40,830 nt of DNA from Thermococcus celericrescens. GTDB taxonomy: Archaea > Methanobacteriota_B > Thermococci > Thermococcales > Thermococcaceae. This document shows, in pieces, positions 12,180 through 32,765 of the stretch. Location of the stretch: positions 1 through 40,830 of the forward strand of contig NZ_LLYW01000028.1 of NCBI RefSeq assembly GCF_001484195.1. Reading direction: 5' to 3'. Positions within the stretch are counted from its first letter, which is position 1. Each line of letters opens with the position of its first letter. A program made the position numbers and the translations under genes. Under the pieces are notes generated by a model. That model had not been told where the DNA came from. It searched no databases and saw nothing but the letters and a program-made list of their open reading frames with translations.

Positions 12180-12196
12180 AACCTTAGGTTTTGAAC
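12180..12196 (+). promoter_or_regulatory. Extended SurR-type site over and after the nsr TATA box
   Basis: AACCTTAGGTTTTGAAC is a perfect match, in reverse orientation, to the published extended SurR consensus GTTn3AACn5GTT. It starts inside the TATA element (CTTTTTAACC, 12174-12183) and runs downstream, 17 nt before the ATG. A bound regulator would block transcription, as expected for a sulfur-induced gene. SurR itself is not in this window. Confidence 0.75.
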
Positions 12197-22201: not shown

Positions 22202-22218
22202 AACATAGGGTTAAAAAC
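22202..22218 (+). promoter_or_regulatory. Extended SurR-type site upstream of hypA
   Basis: AACATAGGGTTAAAAAC matches GTTn3AACn5GTT perfectly in reverse orientation. It lies just upstream of the TATA element CCTTTTTAAGG (22223-22234), the activator position reported for hydrogenase-related SurR targets. The TATA centre is 36 nt from the hypA ATG. Confidence 0.75.
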
Positions 22219-23459: not shown

Positions 23460-23933
23460 ATGGAATTCTCCAAACTCCTCAGAAGGGCTAAACGGGTCGT
23501 CGTCTGCGGAATAGGGAACGAGGTTAGGGGGGACGATGCCTTCGGCGTCATCGTTGCCGAGAAGCTGAAGGGACTGGTGAACAACCCAAACGTTCTCATC
23601 CTCAACTGCGGTGAGGTTCCGGAGAGCTACACGGGAAAGATAACAAAATTCGAGCCGGATCTGGTGGTCTTCGTGGATGCGGTTGACTTCGGCGGGGAGC
23701 ACGGAGAGGTCATAATCGCCGACCCGGAGGGGACTCTCGGAGAGGCGGTCTCGACCCACAGCCTGCCGCTCAAGATTCTGGTGGGCTACCTGAAGACACG
23801 CCTCAACGCGGAGTTCGTCCTCATCGGCTGCCAGCCGGCCGTTCTGGGCCTCTTCCAGGAGCCGAGCGAGATTATAATCGAACGGGCGAAAACACTCGCA
23901 GAATCGCTGGCCGGGGCCCTCGGGAGCGGTTGA
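23460..23933 (+). CDS. hycI: Hydrogenase maturation endopeptidase (HycI family)
   Basis: Protease of 157 aa that removes the C-terminal extension of a NiFe hydrogenase large subunit after nickel insertion. Seen: VVCGIGNEVRGDDAFGVIVA (the conserved GNxxxxDDGxG-type motif with the first nickel-sensing acid), VVFVDAVDFGGEHGEV near residue 72 (second acid), and STHSLPLKILVGYL near 99 (conserved His). It is 48 bp from hypB with a GGTGAAACT site before the ATG and no convincing TATA box, so it is probably co-transcribed with hypAB. Confidence 0.93.
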   Translation: MEFSKLLRRAKRVVVCGIGNEVRGDDAFGVIVAEKLKGLVNNPNVLILNCGEVPESYTGKITKFEPDLVVFVDAVDFGGEHGEVIIADPEGTLGEAVSTHSLPLKILVGYLKTRLNAEFVLIGCQPAVLGLFQEPSEIIIERAKTLAESLAGALGSG

Positions 23934-23945
23934 AAACCAGAGGTT
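23929..23945 (+). promoter_or_regulatory. Extended SurR-type site upstream of hypC
   Basis: GTTGAAAACCAGAGGTT matches GTTn3AACn5GTT perfectly in forward orientation. It overlaps the hycI stop codon and precedes the likely TATA element CCCTAAAAAGG (about 23953-23963), which lies 36 nt before the hypC ATG. Confidence 0.75.
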
Positions 23946-25360: not shown

Positions 25361-25377
25361 GTTTTTAACTTTTGGTT
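25361..25377 (+). promoter_or_regulatory. Extended SurR-type site upstream of hypF
   Basis: GTTTTTAACTTTTGGTT matches GTTn3AACn5GTT perfectly. It ends about 7 nt before the TATA element ACCTATAAAGG (25384-25394), itself centred 38 nt before the hypF ATG. The geometry is that of an activator site. Confidence 0.78.
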
Positions 25378-27793: not shown

Positions 27794-28804
27794 ATGAAGA
27801 TAAAGCTCGAACACGGTGCAGGCGGAGAGATAATGGAGGAGCTCCTAAGGGACGTCGTACTAAAGAGCCTGAGCCTGAAATCGGCCGGGGGGATAGGCTT
27901 AGACGCCCTCGACGATGGGGCAGCGATACCTTTCGGCGATAAACACCTGGTGTTTACAATAGACGGCCACACGGTCAAGCCACTCTTCTTCCCCGGCGGA
28001 GACATAGGTCGCTTGGCCATCAGCGGAACGGTGAACGACCTGGCCGTTATGGGGGCCAAGCCCCTTGCCCTGGCCAACTCCATGATAATCGGTGAGGGCT
28101 TCGACGGTGAAGATCTGAAGAGAATACTCCGCTCAATGGACGAAACGGCCAGAGAGGTGCCGGTTCCCATCGTCACCGGCGACACCAAAGTTGTTGAGGA
28201 CGGGATAGGCATCTTCGTTATAACCGCCGGAATCGGAATCGCGGAGAGGCCGGTAAGCGACGCCGGAGCGGAAGTTGGCGACGTCGTCCTCGTCAGCGGA
28301 ACGGTTGGAGATCACGGAATAGCGCTGATGAGCCACAGGGAGGGCATAGCCTTCGAGACAGAGCTTGAGAGCGACGTTGCCCCGATATGGGAGGTTGTGG
28401 AGGCCGTGGCAGGAGCAATCGGCTGGGAGAACATACACGCCATGAAGGACCCCACGAGGGGCGGTCTGAGCAACGCCCTCAACGAGATGGCGAGGAAGGC
28501 CAACGTCGGGATACTCATAAGGGAAACCGACGTACCCGTGAGGCCGGAAGTCAGGGCCGCCAGCGATATGCTGGGCATAAACCCCTTCGATGTTGCCAAC
28601 GAGGGCAAAGTGGTCATGATCGTCCCAAGGGAGCACGCGGAAGAGGCGCTGGAGGCGATGAGGAGCACGGAGCGGGGGAAGAACGCGGCGATAATCGGCG
28701 ATGTCATAGAGGACTACAGGGGCAAGGTTCTCGTGGAGACAGGCATAGGCGGAAAGCGCTTCCTTGAACCCCCCGCAGGAGACCCGGTTCCGAGGGTCTG
28801 CTGA
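27794..28804 (+). CDS. hypE: Carbamoyl-dehydratase HypE
   Basis: HypE (336 aa) accepts the carbamoyl group on its C-terminal Cys and dehydrates it with ATP to thiocyanate, giving the CN ligand. Seen: the PurM/AIR synthase-like N-terminal fold (KLEHGAGGEIMEELL, then GLDALDDGAAIPFG), the nucleotide-binding GDIGRLAISGTVNDLAVMG near residue 72, DPTRGGLSNALNEMA near 219, and the C-terminus DPVPRVC with the acceptor Cys336. A strong GGAGGG site precedes the ATG. A weak TATA-like AGTTAAATT near 27751 may give it a second promoter, but the 48-bp gap after hypF also fits read-through. Confidence 0.97.
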   Translation: MKIKLEHGAGGEIMEELLRDVVLKSLSLKSAGGIGLDALDDGAAIPFGDKHLVFTIDGHTVKPLFFPGGDIGRLAISGTVNDLAVMGAKPLALANSMIIGEGFDGEDLKRILRSMDETAREVPVPIVTGDTKVVEDGIGIFVITAGIGIAERPVSDAGAEVGDVVLVSGTVGDHGIALMSHREGIAFETELESDVAPIWEVVEAVAGAIGWENIHAMKDPTRGGLSNALNEMARKANVGILIRETDVPVRPEVRAASDMLGINPFDVANEGKVVMIVPREHAEEALEAMRSTERGKNAAIIGDVIEDYRGKVLVETGIGGKRFLEPPAGDPVPRVC

Positions 28805-28835
28805 GTCCCTTTTCACGATTCCCACTTTTGTCCTT

Positions 28836-28852
28836 AACCTTCGGTTTGGGAA
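28836..28852 (+). promoter_or_regulatory. Degenerate SurR-type site before the TBP-like gene
   Basis: AACCTTCGGTTTGGGAA keeps two of the three half sites of the extended consensus (AACn5GTT), but the last half is GAA instead of AAC. It sits a few bases upstream of the TATA element CCGTATAAGG (28855-28864), in the same geometry as the hyp sites. Confidence 0.4.
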
Positions 28853-28894
28853 AGCCGTATAAGGCTCTTTTTCCAATTTCAACCGGTGGGGGAG

Positions 28895-29188
28895 ATGATA
28901 ATCGCAAAGCCCTGCGTAACGATGAAGGGAGTTGTCATAAGCGGCTACTCGTGGGACAGGAAGGTGAAGGTGGACCTGACGAGAACCGCCCAGTGCCTAA
29001 AGGAGAAGGGGTACACCGTGAAGAAGCTCCTGCCGGGGATGATGCTCATTCTCGAAATGGAGGGCTACGAGACGAGCGTCTACCCGAGCGGCAAGATAAT
29101 AATCAAGCTCCTTGAGGACTCAAAGAAGGGTGAGGAGCTCGCTCGAATAATCTACGACTGCGCTGGAGTTTTGGAGGTGGTCTCATGA
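28895..29188 (+). CDS. Small protein resembling one half of a TATA-binding protein
   Basis: A 97-aa protein of unknown function. Residues about 27-85 follow the pattern of a single TBP repeat: VDLTRTAQCLKEKGYTVKKL, then LPGMMLILEM, then VYPSGKIIIK (compare FSSGKIVxTG in TBP) and a C-terminal helix (SKKGEELARIIYD). A full TBP has two such repeats, so this would act as a dimer or as a different binding module; TBP-like folds also occur in RNase HIII and some glycosylases. The N-terminal MIIAKPCVTMKGVV contains one Cys, and a second lies in YDCAGVL. ATG 28895 has GGTGGGGGAG upstream and a TATA centre 35 nt away. The stop overlaps the start of the cysteine desulfurase gene (ATGA), so the two are coupled. 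Confidence 0.6.
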   Translation: MIIAKPCVTMKGVVISGYSWDRKVKVDLTRTAQCLKEKGYTVKKLLPGMMLILEMEGYETSVYPSGKIIIKLLEDSKKGEELARIIYDCAGVLEVVS

Positions 29189-30384
29189 GGATTCCGGAGG
29201 ACATTAGGAAGGACATTCCCCTGACTGATGAGGTCATATACTTCGACAACACCGCCACTTCGCTCACCCCCAAGCCCGTGATAGAGGCGATGAACGAGTA
29301 CTACCTCAAGTACCGCGCCAACGTCCACAGGGGAGTACACAGGCTTTCCCAGATGGCGACCCACAAGTACGAGGAGAGCAGGAAGGTGACGGCAGATTTT
29401 CTCAACGCCAAGTTTGAAGAGATAGTCTTCACCAAGAACACGAGCGAGAGCCTCAACCTGGTCTCCCTCGGTCTGGAGGGGTTATTCAAGCCCGGCGACA
29501 AGATAGTGACGACGCCCTACGAGCACCACTCCGATTTACTCCCCTGGCAGAGGCTGGCCAAAAAGCTCGGCCTCAAGCTCGAGTTCATAGAGGGTGACGA
29601 CGAGGGCAACCTCGACCTGAGCGATGCGGAGAAGAAGATCAAGGACGCGAAGCTGGTAGCCGTTCAGCACGTCTCCAACGCCCTCGGCGTTATCCATGAG
29701 GTTGAAGAGCTGGGCAAGATGGCGAAGGAAACGGGGGCGATATTTGTCATTGATGCTGCCCAGAGCGCCGGCCACATGGAGGTGGACGTGAAGAAGCTCC
29801 ACGCGGACTTCTTGGGACTTTCGGGCCACAAGGGGCCGATGGGACCGACGGGGATAGGCGTTCTCTACATCAATGAGGAGTTCTTCGATATCTTCGAACC
29901 GCCGCTGATAGGTGGAGGAACGATAGAAGACGTTGGACTGGAGGGATACAAGCTGGCCGAGCCGCCGGAAAGGTTCGAGGCTGGAACGCCCAACATAGGC
30001 GGTGCGATAGGTCTCGCCGCTGGAATAAGGTACATCGAGAGGATAGGCCTCGACAAAATCGAGAGACAGGAGCACAAGCTCGTCAAGAGGATAACAGAGG
30101 GGCTTGACGAGCTGGAAGTGCCGTGGTACGGGCCGAGGAACCTGAAGAAGCACGCCGGTGTCGTGAGCTTCAACGTTCCCGGCATTCACCCCCACGACGT
30201 TGCCGCGATCCTCGACAACCACAACATAATGGTCCGCTCCGGCCACCACTGTGCTTTACCTGTCATGAAGAGGCTCGGAATAAACGGCACCGTAAGGGCC
30301 TCGTTCCATGTCTACAACAGCCTCGAAGAGGTCGAGACTTTCCTCGGAGTAATGGAGGAGCTGGTAAAAAGTTTGAGGGATTAG
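29185..30384 (+). CDS. Cysteine desulfurase, SufS/CsdA type
   Basis: PLP enzyme (399 aa) that takes sulfur from cysteine for Fe-S cluster or thio-cofactor synthesis. Seen: the N-terminal EVIYFDNTATSLTPKPVI, FTKNTSESLNLV, the PLP-contacting HVSNALGVIHEV and VIDAAQSAGHMEVDV, Lys216 in SGHKGPMGPTGIGVLY as Schiff-base residue, and Cys356 in RSGHHCALPVM as the persulfide carrier. The short RSGxxCAxP form indicates the SufS group. Its location after the hyp genes suggests that it supplies sulfur for hydrogenase Fe-S clusters. The 3' end overlaps the convergent unknown gene by 4 bp. Confidence 0.94.
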   Translation: MRIPEDIRKDIPLTDEVIYFDNTATSLTPKPVIEAMNEYYLKYRANVHRGVHRLSQMATHKYEESRKVTADFLNAKFEEIVFTKNTSESLNLVSLGLEGLFKPGDKIVTTPYEHHSDLLPWQRLAKKLGLKLEFIEGDDEGNLDLSDAEKKIKDAKLVAVQHVSNALGVIHEVEELGKMAKETGAIFVIDAAQSAGHMEVDVKKLHADFLGLSGHKGPMGPTGIGVLYINEEFFDIFEPPLIGGGTIEDVGLEGYKLAEPPERFEAGTPNIGGAIGLAAGIRYIERIGLDKIERQEHKLVKRITEGLDELEVPWYGPRNLKKHAGVVSFNVPGIHPHDVAAILDNHNIMVRSGHHCALPVMKRLGINGTVRASFHVYNSLEEVETFLGVMEELVKSLRD

Positions 30385-31280
30385 TGGAGAAACTCCCCCC
30401 ACTCCACGTTTATCGTCTCCGGGGTGCGGTAGATGAAGGCCGCCTCCCCCTTGTGGACGTGCTTCCTCATCGGGCCCAGTGGAACGCCGTTCGTCTCATA
30501 GATCACGCTCTGAATGTCCGGGTCGTGGTAGAGAACCAAGCTCGGGCCGGCCAGGTTCATTATCGAGTCTATCGCGTACTGGGTTGCGAGAACCGTTACC
30601 CTCGCCCTCATTGGGCGGGTTATCAGCGGTATAGCGGCACCACCAGCTGTGGTGTATGCCAGGACGGCGGCGTCGTTGATACCTATCATGGTGTTCCTCC
30701 TGTGTCTGACCACCGCGCTCACGACAAGAAAAGCTATGCCAGCCAGGGTTATGCTGTATGTCTCCCCTAGCTCCACCAGGATGTTCTTCCCGAACTCCGG
30801 CGGTTTTCCGGAATAGAATGCCTCATCCAAATGTGTGTAGCTCTCCCGGATAACCTCGGCGTATTTTCCATCCGACTTCATGGCCTCGGGAACGCTCTTC
30901 ACCTTTCCGGCCAAGAAATCGGCGTAAAGTCTCTCTGTCAGGGTTCTGTCGAGCCCGTAAACGGTCTGGACTATCGTTGCTGCAGTGTAACCATCGAGAA
31001 TGCCTTTGTCCGCGAGGGCTATTGGGTCGAGGCCCGTTCCCTGGCCGTCCTTCACCCTGATGATAGTGTCAAACCCCTCCTCCGGAAAGTCTCCCTCCGT
31101 GTCGAAGATAACTGCCCCGTAGTCAATCTCCCGGTACCTGTCCGCGAAGTACTTCAGGGCCTTCCCCGGCCACTCGTCCATTCCAAAGACCTTGAGAGTC
31201 CTACCGTGGTAAACGGGGTCGTAGAAGGTGTCCTCCCCCTCACGCTCAAAGAGCCTAACCGCTATACGGCTGTACTTCAT
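30381..31280 (-). CDS. Unknown protein, possibly a degenerate HerA/FtsK-like ATPase
   Basis: Protein of 299 aa that I do not firmly recognise. Its layout resembles archaeal HerA/VirB4-type ATPases: a Walker B-like or strand-2 segment YGAVIFDTEGDFPEEGFD near residue 58; DPIALADKGILDGYTAATIV near 88; a hydrophobic strand ITLAGIAFLVVSAVV near 177; NTMIGINDAAVLAYT near 197 in the place of Walker B; and ARVTVLATQYAIDSIMNLAG near 228, like the sensor region. The phosphate-binding loop is poor (GMDEWPGKA, with no S/T after the Lys), so ATP hydrolysis is doubtful. ATG 31280 has GGTGA 5 nt upstream and a TATA box (minus-strand CGTTTATAGA, 31311-31320) centred 35 nt away. It is convergent with the cysteine desulfurase. 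Confidence 0.55.
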   Translation of the reverse strand: MKYSRIAVRLFEREGEDTFYDPVYHGRTLKVFGMDEWPGKALKYFADRYREIDYGAVIFDTEGDFPEEGFDTIIRVKDGQGTGLDPIALADKGILDGYTAATIVQTVYGLDRTLTERLYADFLAGKVKSVPEAMKSDGKYAEVIRESYTHLDEAFYSGKPPEFGKNILVELGETYSITLAGIAFLVVSAVVRHRRNTMIGINDAAVLAYTTAGGAAIPLITRPMRARVTVLATQYAIDSIMNLAGPSLVLYHDPDIQSVIYETNGVPLGPMRKHVHKGEAAFIYRTPETINVEWGEFLH

Positions 31281-31433
31281 GCGGTTCACCGATTGAGAAT
31301 AGGGAGAGGTTCTATAAACGGCTTCTGGTTTAATACCTCAACTGTTCGTTTTGAGCGGAAGTTTTAAGAGTTTTCATGATTAATAGTAGGTACATTGGGT
31401 GGAGAACGAGATTCTACACTCTCAAACAAGCAA

Positions 31434-31514: not shown

Positions 31515-32765
31515 GTGAAAATCGTTCTCACTTACAAGATGACTCACGACTGGAACGTTGAGGAGTTATTAACCGCGTACAGGCGAATCCTCCAGCGGGC
31601 GATTGATGAAATCTGGGAAAACACGACTTGGAAGGAAAAGAAAGTCAAACACCGCTACTCCATTGGAAACGGAAAATACAAGTATTACGAGACAACTCGA
31701 CTAATCCCCTACTTCCCAAAATCCAGCGAGTTCAAGAGGGAATTGAGGAATAAACTCCTCAAGAACTGGCCTTTTGCCAAACACTACGTTGATTCGGCGA
31801 TAAAAACCGCCTACTCAATCCTTGAGAGCTGGAGGCAGAACTACCTGAAGGGAAGGAGAAAGAGAAGAAAACCAGTAGTAAAGAGGAAGTTCGTGCGAGT
31901 TAAGACCACGTTAATGAAGGTTGAAGGCTCGAAAATCAGGATAACCGTCAAACCGAGGGAGGAATACCTCGAACTCGACTATTCTGGAGAATGGTTTTAC
32001 GAGAGGATTGCAGGCTGGAAGGTTGGGGAACTGATAATTAGAGAGAGGGACGTTTATCTGACCTTCTCGAAAGAACTTGAGTTTAATGGAAGGATTAAAC
32101 TCGGGATTGACAGCAACTTAATGAGCTTCGACGTTTATCATCCGGAGAAAGGCTGGATTAAGGTGGATTTGAGTGAACTTCACAGGATTGCGGAAACCTA
32201 CGATGGGATTATTGATAAGCTAAAGAGTATCCAGCGGAAAGCCCCAAAGAGGATTGGAATGCTCCTTAGGAAGTATTACGCGCGTAGGAGGAATAGAATT
32301 GAGGATTTCTTAAATAAACTCGCCGTTCAGCTCTCAAGAGAGTTTCCCGATACGGTTTTCGTTTTCGAAGATTTAAACAAGTTCAAAATGCTGGAGAACG
32401 GTTCGAGAAAGTTCAACCGCAAACTTTCCCATTCGACTTGGGGTAAGATTGTTCGGAAGCTCTCTTACCGTGTTCCAATCGAGTTTGTTAATCCTGCTGG
32501 CACTTCTTCCACCTGCCCGGTGTGTGGGAGTAGGTTAGAGTCCCGAAACGGGCTGGTGGAGTGTTTTAACTGCAGGTTTAAGGCCGATAGGCAGTTCCTT
32601 GGTGCGTTTAATGTTTTCGTTCGGGGAGTTGGGGTCGCCCTGAGCGGGGGTGAGGCCCGTGATTTACTCTCCAATGAACCCGGAGGGGAGTTGAGGCTGA
32701 TGAGCCCCAAGTCCGTCGTGAGGGTGGACTTGAACGGGAGGACGTTTATTCATGTTCCTCCCTAA
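31515..32765 (+). CDS. tnpB: TnpB of element C (intact, second family)
   Basis: IS605-family TnpB, an RNA-guided nuclease, 416 aa in one frame and unrelated in detail to copies A and B. The N-terminal wedge domain is lysine/arginine-rich (KGRRKRRKPVVKRKFVRV near residue 115). RuvC-I Asp199 lies in LGIDSNLMSFDVY, RuvC-II Glu285 in FVFEDLNKF at the usual place, and RuvC-III Asp358 in FKADRQFLGAFNVF. The zinc ribbon is CPVCG ... CFNCRF. All catalytic residues are present, so the protein may be active. The start is GTG 31515 with GAGGTCGAGAG upstream. The C-terminal about 45 codons probably overlap the guide RNA. No tnpA is near. Confidence 0.88.
   Translation: MKIVLTYKMTHDWNVEELLTAYRRILQRAIDEIWENTTWKEKKVKHRYSIGNGKYKYYETTRLIPYFPKSSEFKRELRNKLLKNWPFAKHYVDSAIKTAYSILESWRQNYLKGRRKRRKPVVKRKFVRVKTTLMKVEGSKIRITVKPREEYLELDYSGEWFYERIAGWKVGELIIRERDVYLTFSKELEFNGRIKLGIDSNLMSFDVYHPEKGWIKVDLSELHRIAETYDGIIDKLKSIQRKAPKRIGMLLRKYYARRRNRIEDFLNKLAVQLSREFPDTVFVFEDLNKFKMLENGSRKFNRKLSHSTWGKIVRKLSYRVPIEFVNPAGTSSTCPVCGSRLESRNGLVECFNCRFKADRQFLGAFNVFVRGVGVALSGGEARDLLSNEPGGELRLMSPKSVVRVDLNGRTFIHVPP
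32708..32762 (+). ncRNA. Candidate right-end RNA hairpins of element C
   Basis: Two inverted repeats lie at the end of tnpB: CAAGTCC (32708-32714) with GGACTTG (32726-32732), and GGGAGG (32736-32741) with CCTCCC (32757-32762), the latter running into the stop codon region. By analogy with other TnpB elements these could be the 3' part of the guide RNA and the element's right end. The exact end is not determined. Confidence 0.35.

Follow-up and report, generated by a model that had tools for sequence, protein, structure and literature searches.

The TATA-binding protein (TBP) comprises two lobes and contacts DNA through a set of residues that includes an asparagine in strand 1, two phenylalanines, and a threonine or serine in strand 5. 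Proteins of archaea that carry a single TBP lobe were reportedly described by Brindefalk in 2013. Single-lobe archaeal homologues are also on record in the sections of Ravarani 2020 that concern them (PMC7221094), and a TBP-like C-terminus of archaeal E1 proteins has previously been described in the relevant part of Makarova and Koonin 2010 (PMC2948915). A separate body of work concerns the partners of cysteine desulfurases. The SufE and SufU proteins are missing in most archaea according to the pertinent passages of PMC12442378, which also report that the desulfurase of T. kodakarensis, Tk-CSD, shows no binding to SmsC or to SmsB2C2, and apparently none to SmsB. For T. onnurineus, the portion of PMC5426080 that addresses this subject states that no sulfur acceptor gene was identified.

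The stretch of Thermococcus celericrescens DNA analyzed here (40,830 nucleotides, hereafter the window) carries a gene for a stand-alone TBP-like lobe of 97 amino acids, which we call TBPL. The gene spans positions 28895-29188 on the forward strand, belongs to the subgroup that we call type A, and is supported by its open reading frame (ORF), relatives, a profile, and a structure model. We judge it to be real because 86 of 94 Thermococcaceae genomes carry TBPL or a paralogue (matches at E≤0.01). The start codon is an ATG just 3' of a GGTGG ribosome-binding site (28885-28889, forward strand), and sites of the GGTG type are also present in relatives. A GTG start at 28886 in the raw ORF list is unneeded, as homology and start codon coincide at 28895 in nearly all of the relatives read.

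The TBPL stop codon and the ATG of the following gene share the four nucleotides ATGA (29185-29188, forward strand), and the ribosome-binding site of that second gene, GGAGGTG, is internal to TBPL (29173-29179, forward strand). The second gene (29185-30384, forward strand) codes for a SufS-type (class II) cysteine desulfurase of 399 amino acids that matches PDB entry 5b7s with E=1e-247. We take this entry, following PMC5426080, to be the crystallized T. onnurineus enzyme. A convergent gene, taken from the ORF list, lies 3' of SufS (30381-31289, reverse strand). Just 3' of the TBPL-SufS unit, positions 31515-32765 on the forward strand hold an ORF whose product resembles, by eye, transposon proteins of the TnpB/OrfB type and has a zinc region of the CxxC kind. 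On the upstream side is hypE (27794-28804, forward strand), which we do not count as part of the unit. An earlier note on this DNA had described both close neighbors. The overlap with the desulfurase gene is as it claimed, and hypE does precede TBPL, although its 3' end is separated from the TBPL start by 90 nucleotides that hold a conserved promoter with SurR-type, BRE, and TATA elements.

The window protein alone scores 15.1 bits against the Pfam TBP model (PF00352), below the cut-off of 22.9, and a single-sequence PDB search with it yielded no TBP match. When 28 members of the family were compared with Pfam, 20 matched PF00352 at E≤0.1 (best 2.2e-5), and the top hit for the 28-member profile among 177,635 PDB sequences is the TBP of M. 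jannaschii (E=1.3e-5). DUF3378 is weakly matched by three of the 28 (best E=0.0021), and HEPN and other weak Pfam matches were taken as chance. Among the 10 Pfam families matched by the 28 members at E≤0.1, there is no SufE or SufU (IscU-type) model.

An AlphaFold2 model of TBPL, built from nine sequences, has a mean pLDDT of 88 and an order of strand-helix-four strands-helix, and is least confident at the C-terminus. In a VIA-align comparison with this model, TBPs form the top 32 of 50 rows with Z scores from 8.8 to 7.5; unrelated folds begin at Z 7.4, and a Z near 8 is by itself not decisive. Foldseek returned no match at E≤0.001, and its best rows are RNase H3 and TBPs. Thus, the modeled fold by itself is modest evidence for a TBP lobe, and the predicted fold and the profile jointly make a good case. 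Both point to TBPL being a homologous single lobe of the wider TBP-lobe superfamily, with one lobe in its 97 amino acids and not the two of TBP. The reading of the protein as a one-repeat TBP-like protein, made earlier from the sequence, is therefore upheld by the profile match and by the leading VIA-align rows, and the fold unlike a TBP half that would have refuted it did not appear.

TBPL proteins fall into two types. Type A is present in 79 genomes (53-100% identical to the window protein), type B in 27 (34-43%), and both in 20, where the counts for the two types include two fragments. A single-sequence scan of genome contigs gave matches in Thermococcaceae only, and a profile search of 115 genomes of the window's phylum uncovered no further stand-alone member outside this family. 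Profile matches outside the family come from two genomes (G113 and G114) and are located in ORFs of 352-359 amino acids; the G114 protein, when read whole, is E1-like. Tandem TBPL genes at two loci (L013 and L064), which were hinted at by locus clustering, proved to be spurious once translated. The gene directly after type B codes for a family of about 265 amino acids that we call c5 (L115:5276-6076 and homologues, 25 loci), and the c5 protein has no relative in Pfam, NCBIfam, or PDB at the limits used.

The family shares a short motif, K/R-P-C, near the N-terminus. Its Pro6 and Cys7 are invariant in all 92 distinct complete TBPL proteins (70 of type A and 22 of type B; two truncated loci were skipped). 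The Cys7 codon, at positions 28913-28915 of the forward strand, is the proposed persulfide site. Two cysteines had been counted in the window protein earlier, but there are three, the others being Cys34 (codon 28994-28996) and Cys89 (codon 29159-29161), both likewise on the forward strand. Each of these is present in 63 of the 70 distinct type A proteins and in 22 of 22 of type B. The seven distinct type A proteins from which both are missing belong to a Pyrococcus-like genus (the genus name is our assignment), and they keep Cys7.

A cysteine at this edge of the lobe is not confined to TBPL. Besides TBP, the source genome has one other clear TBP lobe, which forms the C-terminal part of an E1-like protein of the ThiF/MoeB kind. 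This protein matches PF00899 and, over its cut-off, PF00352, and thiI directly follows its gene. Such lobes of ThiF/MoeB E1-like enzymes are the closest domain relatives of TBPL, as seen in an hhalign comparison of TBPL with 12 of them (96.4%, E=1.3e-9, 67 columns). All 12 of the Thermococcaceae E1 lobes carry a cysteine just before strand 1, in the sequence CDGSIQ, and LCG is found at the matching place in the five Bacilli E1 proteins read (five of five) and in the G114 E1. Thus, a cysteine immediately before strand 1 is common to TBPL and the E1 lobes, with a difference in spacing: Cys7 is about two residues further out than the E1 cysteine, and hhalign leaves the two unaligned. Both TBP lobes of the source genome lack this residue. 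A third setting is seen in one genome (G086), where a radical SAM protein (L231:1023-2174) has a C-terminal TBP-like lobe, over the cut-off for PF00352, with a cysteine before strand 1. Two genes after it is a PP-loop gene (L231:2886-3710) that resembles the sulfur transferases LarE and TtuA. Of the 94 genomes, 44 encode an E1 with the lobe, and none of these is among the eight that lack SufS (p=0.006, ignoring relatedness).

The coupling of TBPL to SufS extends well beyond the window. Of the 54 type A genes in the genus of the window, 52 are directly adjacent to SufS and share its strand, and the remaining two are on other contigs. The two genes share an exact xTGA overlap at 57 loci, a number that refers to loci read, with some genomes counted twice. 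At most loci of other genera, type A is located between lonB and a glycosyltransferase gene, far from SufS and with no visible sulfur link, and in the Pyrococcus-like genomes this unlinked type A is the only TBPL type. In 24 of 27 cases, type B is no more than 5 kb from SufS, and in several it is directly downstream. One genome of the window's genus (G028) has both types; its type B cluster is without SufS, and SufS adjoins type A. SufS has thus had the two paralogues as neighbors in succession, and each has become its neighbor in different lineages.

Among the 94 Thermococcaceae genomes, TBPL and SufS are both present in 85 and absent together from eight, and none has SufS alone (Fisher p=8e-11, ignoring relatedness). 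Type A without SufS is found in G082, a genome that is 82% complete, and the absence of SufS there probably reflects a missing contig. Of 74 good-quality genomes, 71 carry TBPL and the same 71 carry SufS, which in G065 is a fragment at a contig end; the exceptions are G006, G034, and G055. In G034 (one contig; L169:1485-3458), the gene that in the window is 3' of SufS comes immediately after HypE. Thus, the TBPL-SufS pair is absent together from this site and its neighbors are intact. When mapped to a tree of HypE from 83 genomes, TBPL requires five changes and SufS six, of which the sixth is G082. A relatedness-aware test gave three independent supported pairs that agree, none that oppose, and one with no difference (p=0.25). 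The pattern of joint loss is therefore suggestive, and it does not reach significance in this strict tree test. TBPL is thus encoded with SufS and lost with it, as expected of a SufS partner.

Two genomes, G038 and G089, have a second SufS copy (79% identical) at loci L237 and L238, respectively, without an adjoining TBPL gene. The copy at L238 is divergent from a cysteine synthase-like gene and near an OsmC-like gene, both named by eye.

The region between hypE and TBPL includes the sequence GTCCTTAACCTTCGGTT (28830-28846, forward strand), which fits the SurR-type motif GTYn3AACn5GTT. It is the GTC form, one base off the long SurR site GTTn3AACn5GTT (PMC12162507). The motif occupies the same position, 63-67 nucleotides from the TBPL start, in 41 of 50 distinct upstream regions from the genus, with the strict GTT form in 15 of 50. 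It is found in none of 26 regions upstream of type A elsewhere and in none of 26 upstream of type B. Following it in the window are a BRE-like element, GGGAAAG (28848-28854), and a TATA box, TATAAG (28858-28863), both on the forward strand, conserved among the upstream regions, and assigned by eye. A scan for bacterial-type promoters and terminators found nothing. The window as a whole has five occurrences of GTYn3AACn5GTT, against 0.38 expected. The other four are at 12180-12196 and 22202-22218 (reverse strand) and at 23929-23945 and 25361-25377 (forward strand), and two of these are about 50-70 nucleotides before the hypC and hypF starts.

By these elements, the TBPL-SufS unit has its own promoter and has probably joined the SurR regulon. 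Membership in this regulon would explain the place of TBPL-SufS beside the hyp genes. In T. onnurineus, the desulfurase TON_0289 was detected in cells grown on CO, formate, or starch, and not on sulfur (PMC4463584).

Taken together, the gene overlap, co-occurrence, and conservation data argue well for TBPL as a dedicated partner of SufS, to which it would presumably bind. The likeliest mechanism would be a persulfide relay through Cys7. This residue, on the edge of the lobe that leads into strand 1, would take persulfide sulfur from the active-site cysteine of SufS or, alternatively, would be positioned at the SufS active site and steer the persulfide. TBPL would pass the sulfur to acceptors, which may be the SmsB2C2 Fe-S scaffold, E1/Ubl carriers, or tRNA-thiolation enzymes, and it would in this way stand in for SufE or SufU, although its fold differs from theirs. 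In the genus Thermococcus, TBPL and SufS are translated from a single message, and the SurR-type site in its promoter implies that cells would produce the pair in the absence of elemental sulfur. TBPL fits the vacancy that published work reports for Thermococcus, where no acceptor of the SufE or SufU type is recognized.

We give this reading as a whole, from partnership to sulfur delivery, a slightly better than even chance. On its side, we count the 4-nucleotide overlap, the joint absence with SufS, the empty site in G034, the invariance of Cys7, the fact that each of the two paralogues is a SufS neighbor, the E1 lobes with their own cysteine, the cysteine-bearing lobe of the radical SAM protein, and the published reports of a vacant acceptor role and of a desulfurase that is down on sulfur. 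Counted against it are the unlinked type A genes of other genera, the small number of joint losses with their p of 0.25, G082, the two genomes with a second SufS that has no TBPL, and the offset between Cys7 and the E1 cysteine. A sulfur-transfer module was one of the functions suggested in the earlier note and is the best supported of them. The cysteine on which it would depend needs revision, as a single one (Cys7) is invariant and Cys34 and Cys89 have been lost in the Pyrococcus-like members.

A different possibility is that TBPL is a docking adaptor or activator of SufS without sulfur chemistry of its own, bridging the enzyme to SmsB2C2, to E1/Ubl proteins, or to ThiI. Cys7 could then be structural or metal-binding, or it might sense redox state. 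The overlap, joint-loss, and paralogue evidence fits this role as well as it does a relay. Moreover, E1 and radical SAM enzymes carry the lobe fused at their C-terminus, much like docking modules are, and Tk-CSD alone fails to bind the scaffold (PMC12442378). However, a chemical role is favored by the retention of Cys7 in all 92 proteins, in contrast to Cys34 and Cys89, which some members have lost, and by the cysteine on the same edge of the E1 and radical SAM lobes. We regard a purely adaptor role as unlikely, though less so than the readings that follow.

TBPL might instead be a nucleic-acid-binding module, comparable to the lobe of RNase H3, and engage tRNA or a duplex for SufS-dependent tRNA thiolation or as a regulator. 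Its homology to a TBP lobe and its pI of 8.8 would suit such a role. TBPL residue columns were compared with those of both TBP lobes of the source genome. The strand-1 asparagine column holds glycine in 70 of 70 type A proteins and alanine or glycine in type B; the first phenylalanine column holds leucine, valine, or isoleucine in 68 of 70 type A proteins and valine in type B; and the strand-5 threonine/serine column holds lysine or arginine. The residue before SGK, which is phenylalanine in TBP, remains aromatic, being tyrosine in 70 of 70 type A and phenylalanine in 21 of 22 type B proteins. This retained aromatic residue, which favors nucleic-acid binding, appears to correspond to the L5.1 position of PMC7221094, where tyrosine occurs in the bacterial single lobes that bind nucleic acid and are treated in the part of that paper concerned. 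The suggestion that TBPL is a DNA-binding regulator is accordingly weakened, as the replacement of the first phenylalanine, the strand-1 asparagine, and the strand-5 threonine/serine makes recognition of TATA-type sites unlikely even with the aromatic residue kept. A nucleic-acid-binding role also leaves the invariant Cys7 unexplained, and we consider it improbable.

The location of the window gene next to hypE raises the prospect that TBPL is a hydrogenase maturation factor of the hyp island, where the earlier note had placed it. HypE is found within 300 nucleotides upstream at 23 of 55 examined loci of the genus, and hyp genes and the desulfurase drop together on sulfur in T. onnurineus (PMC4463584). 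However, HypE is present in 74 of 74 good-quality genomes, among them G006, G034, and G055, which have neither TBPL nor SufS. That HypE is present throughout these genomes while TBPL and SufS vanish jointly indicates a link to SufS and not to hydrogenase maturation. In addition, TBPL is far from the hyp genes in other genera, at whose loci no hyp gene was found beside it, and common SurR-type control accounts for the neighborhood. The tie to hydrogenases is thus not supported by the comparison of genomes, and a maturation role appears very improbable.

Least credible of all is a TBP-fold ubiquitin-like modifier or carrier, of the kind proposed for the GG-ended TBP-like proteins of halobacteria in the relevant section of PMC2948915, for although TBPL is a small TBP-fold protein with E1-fused relatives, the C-terminus varies within the family and is modeled with the lowest confidence, an E1 with the lobe is present in fewer than half of the genomes, and the absence of a C-terminal GG from the window protein rules out a GG-ended identity.

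Much of this picture has precedents. Single-lobe archaeal TBPs and the TBP lobes of E1 proteins are already known, and it is the link to SufS and the invariant cysteine that appear to be new. A literature search for a TBP-like protein or TBP-fold lobe joined with a cysteine desulfurase or sulfur transfer found none among the matches listed, and a search by the locus tags TK1991 and TON_0288 and two Pyrococcus tags (all guessed) gave no relevant paper. As far as the pertinent parts of PMC12442378 and PMC5426080 go, Thermococcus has one SufS-type desulfurase, no recognized acceptor of the SufE or SufU type, and no contact detected so far that would join this desulfurase to the Fe-S scaffold. TBPL is a precise candidate for this missing link, and in Cys7 it offers one residue to be mutated in an archaeon that is amenable to genetics. 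If this residue carries a persulfide, then a TBP lobe would have a role outside of nucleic acids, and one would expect the widespread C-terminal lobe of E1 proteins to share that role.

More tentatively, the single TBP lobe with a cysteine before strand 1 may be an ancient sulfur-relay module and, alongside SufE and SufU, form a third structural class of partner for cysteine desulfurases. The lobe occurs in three settings: free beside SufS, fused to E1 activators of sulfur carriers, and fused to a radical SAM enzyme. We consider this idea somewhat more likely to fail than to hold. If true, one branch of the TBP superfamily has served sulfur traffic rather than nucleic acids.

TBPL is neither a TBP nor an E1, and in sequence neither a SufE nor a SufU, but a relative of the E1 C-terminal lobe that stands on its own. 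It has the lobe fold and remote sequence similarity in common with the TATA-binding protein (PF00352), from which it differs in having one lobe only, in scoring below the Pfam cut-off, and in the replacement of DNA-contact residues. The DUF3378 N-domain of RNase H3 is likewise a single TBP lobe, although it is fused to a nuclease and binds an RNA/DNA hybrid. For the single-lobe TBPs of Ravarani 2020, which may include TBPL, the sections of PMC7221094 that deal with them give no sulfur link or cysteine motif. In its proposed role, TBPL most resembles SufE and SufU, as a small cysteine protein that is encoded, lost, and inherited with SufS, but it is modeled as a TBP lobe and matches neither of their Pfam families at E≤0.1. 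The closest counterpart in sequence is the E1 C-terminal TBP-like domain (NCBIfam NF009123/PRK12475), which is also a single lobe with a cysteine before strand 1 and is also found in a sulfur-transfer setting, beside thiI in the source genome. That lobe is fused to a ThiF adenylating domain, carries an LC-G/D motif, and occurs in 44 of 94 genomes, whereas TBPL stands alone, carries KPC, and occurs in 86.
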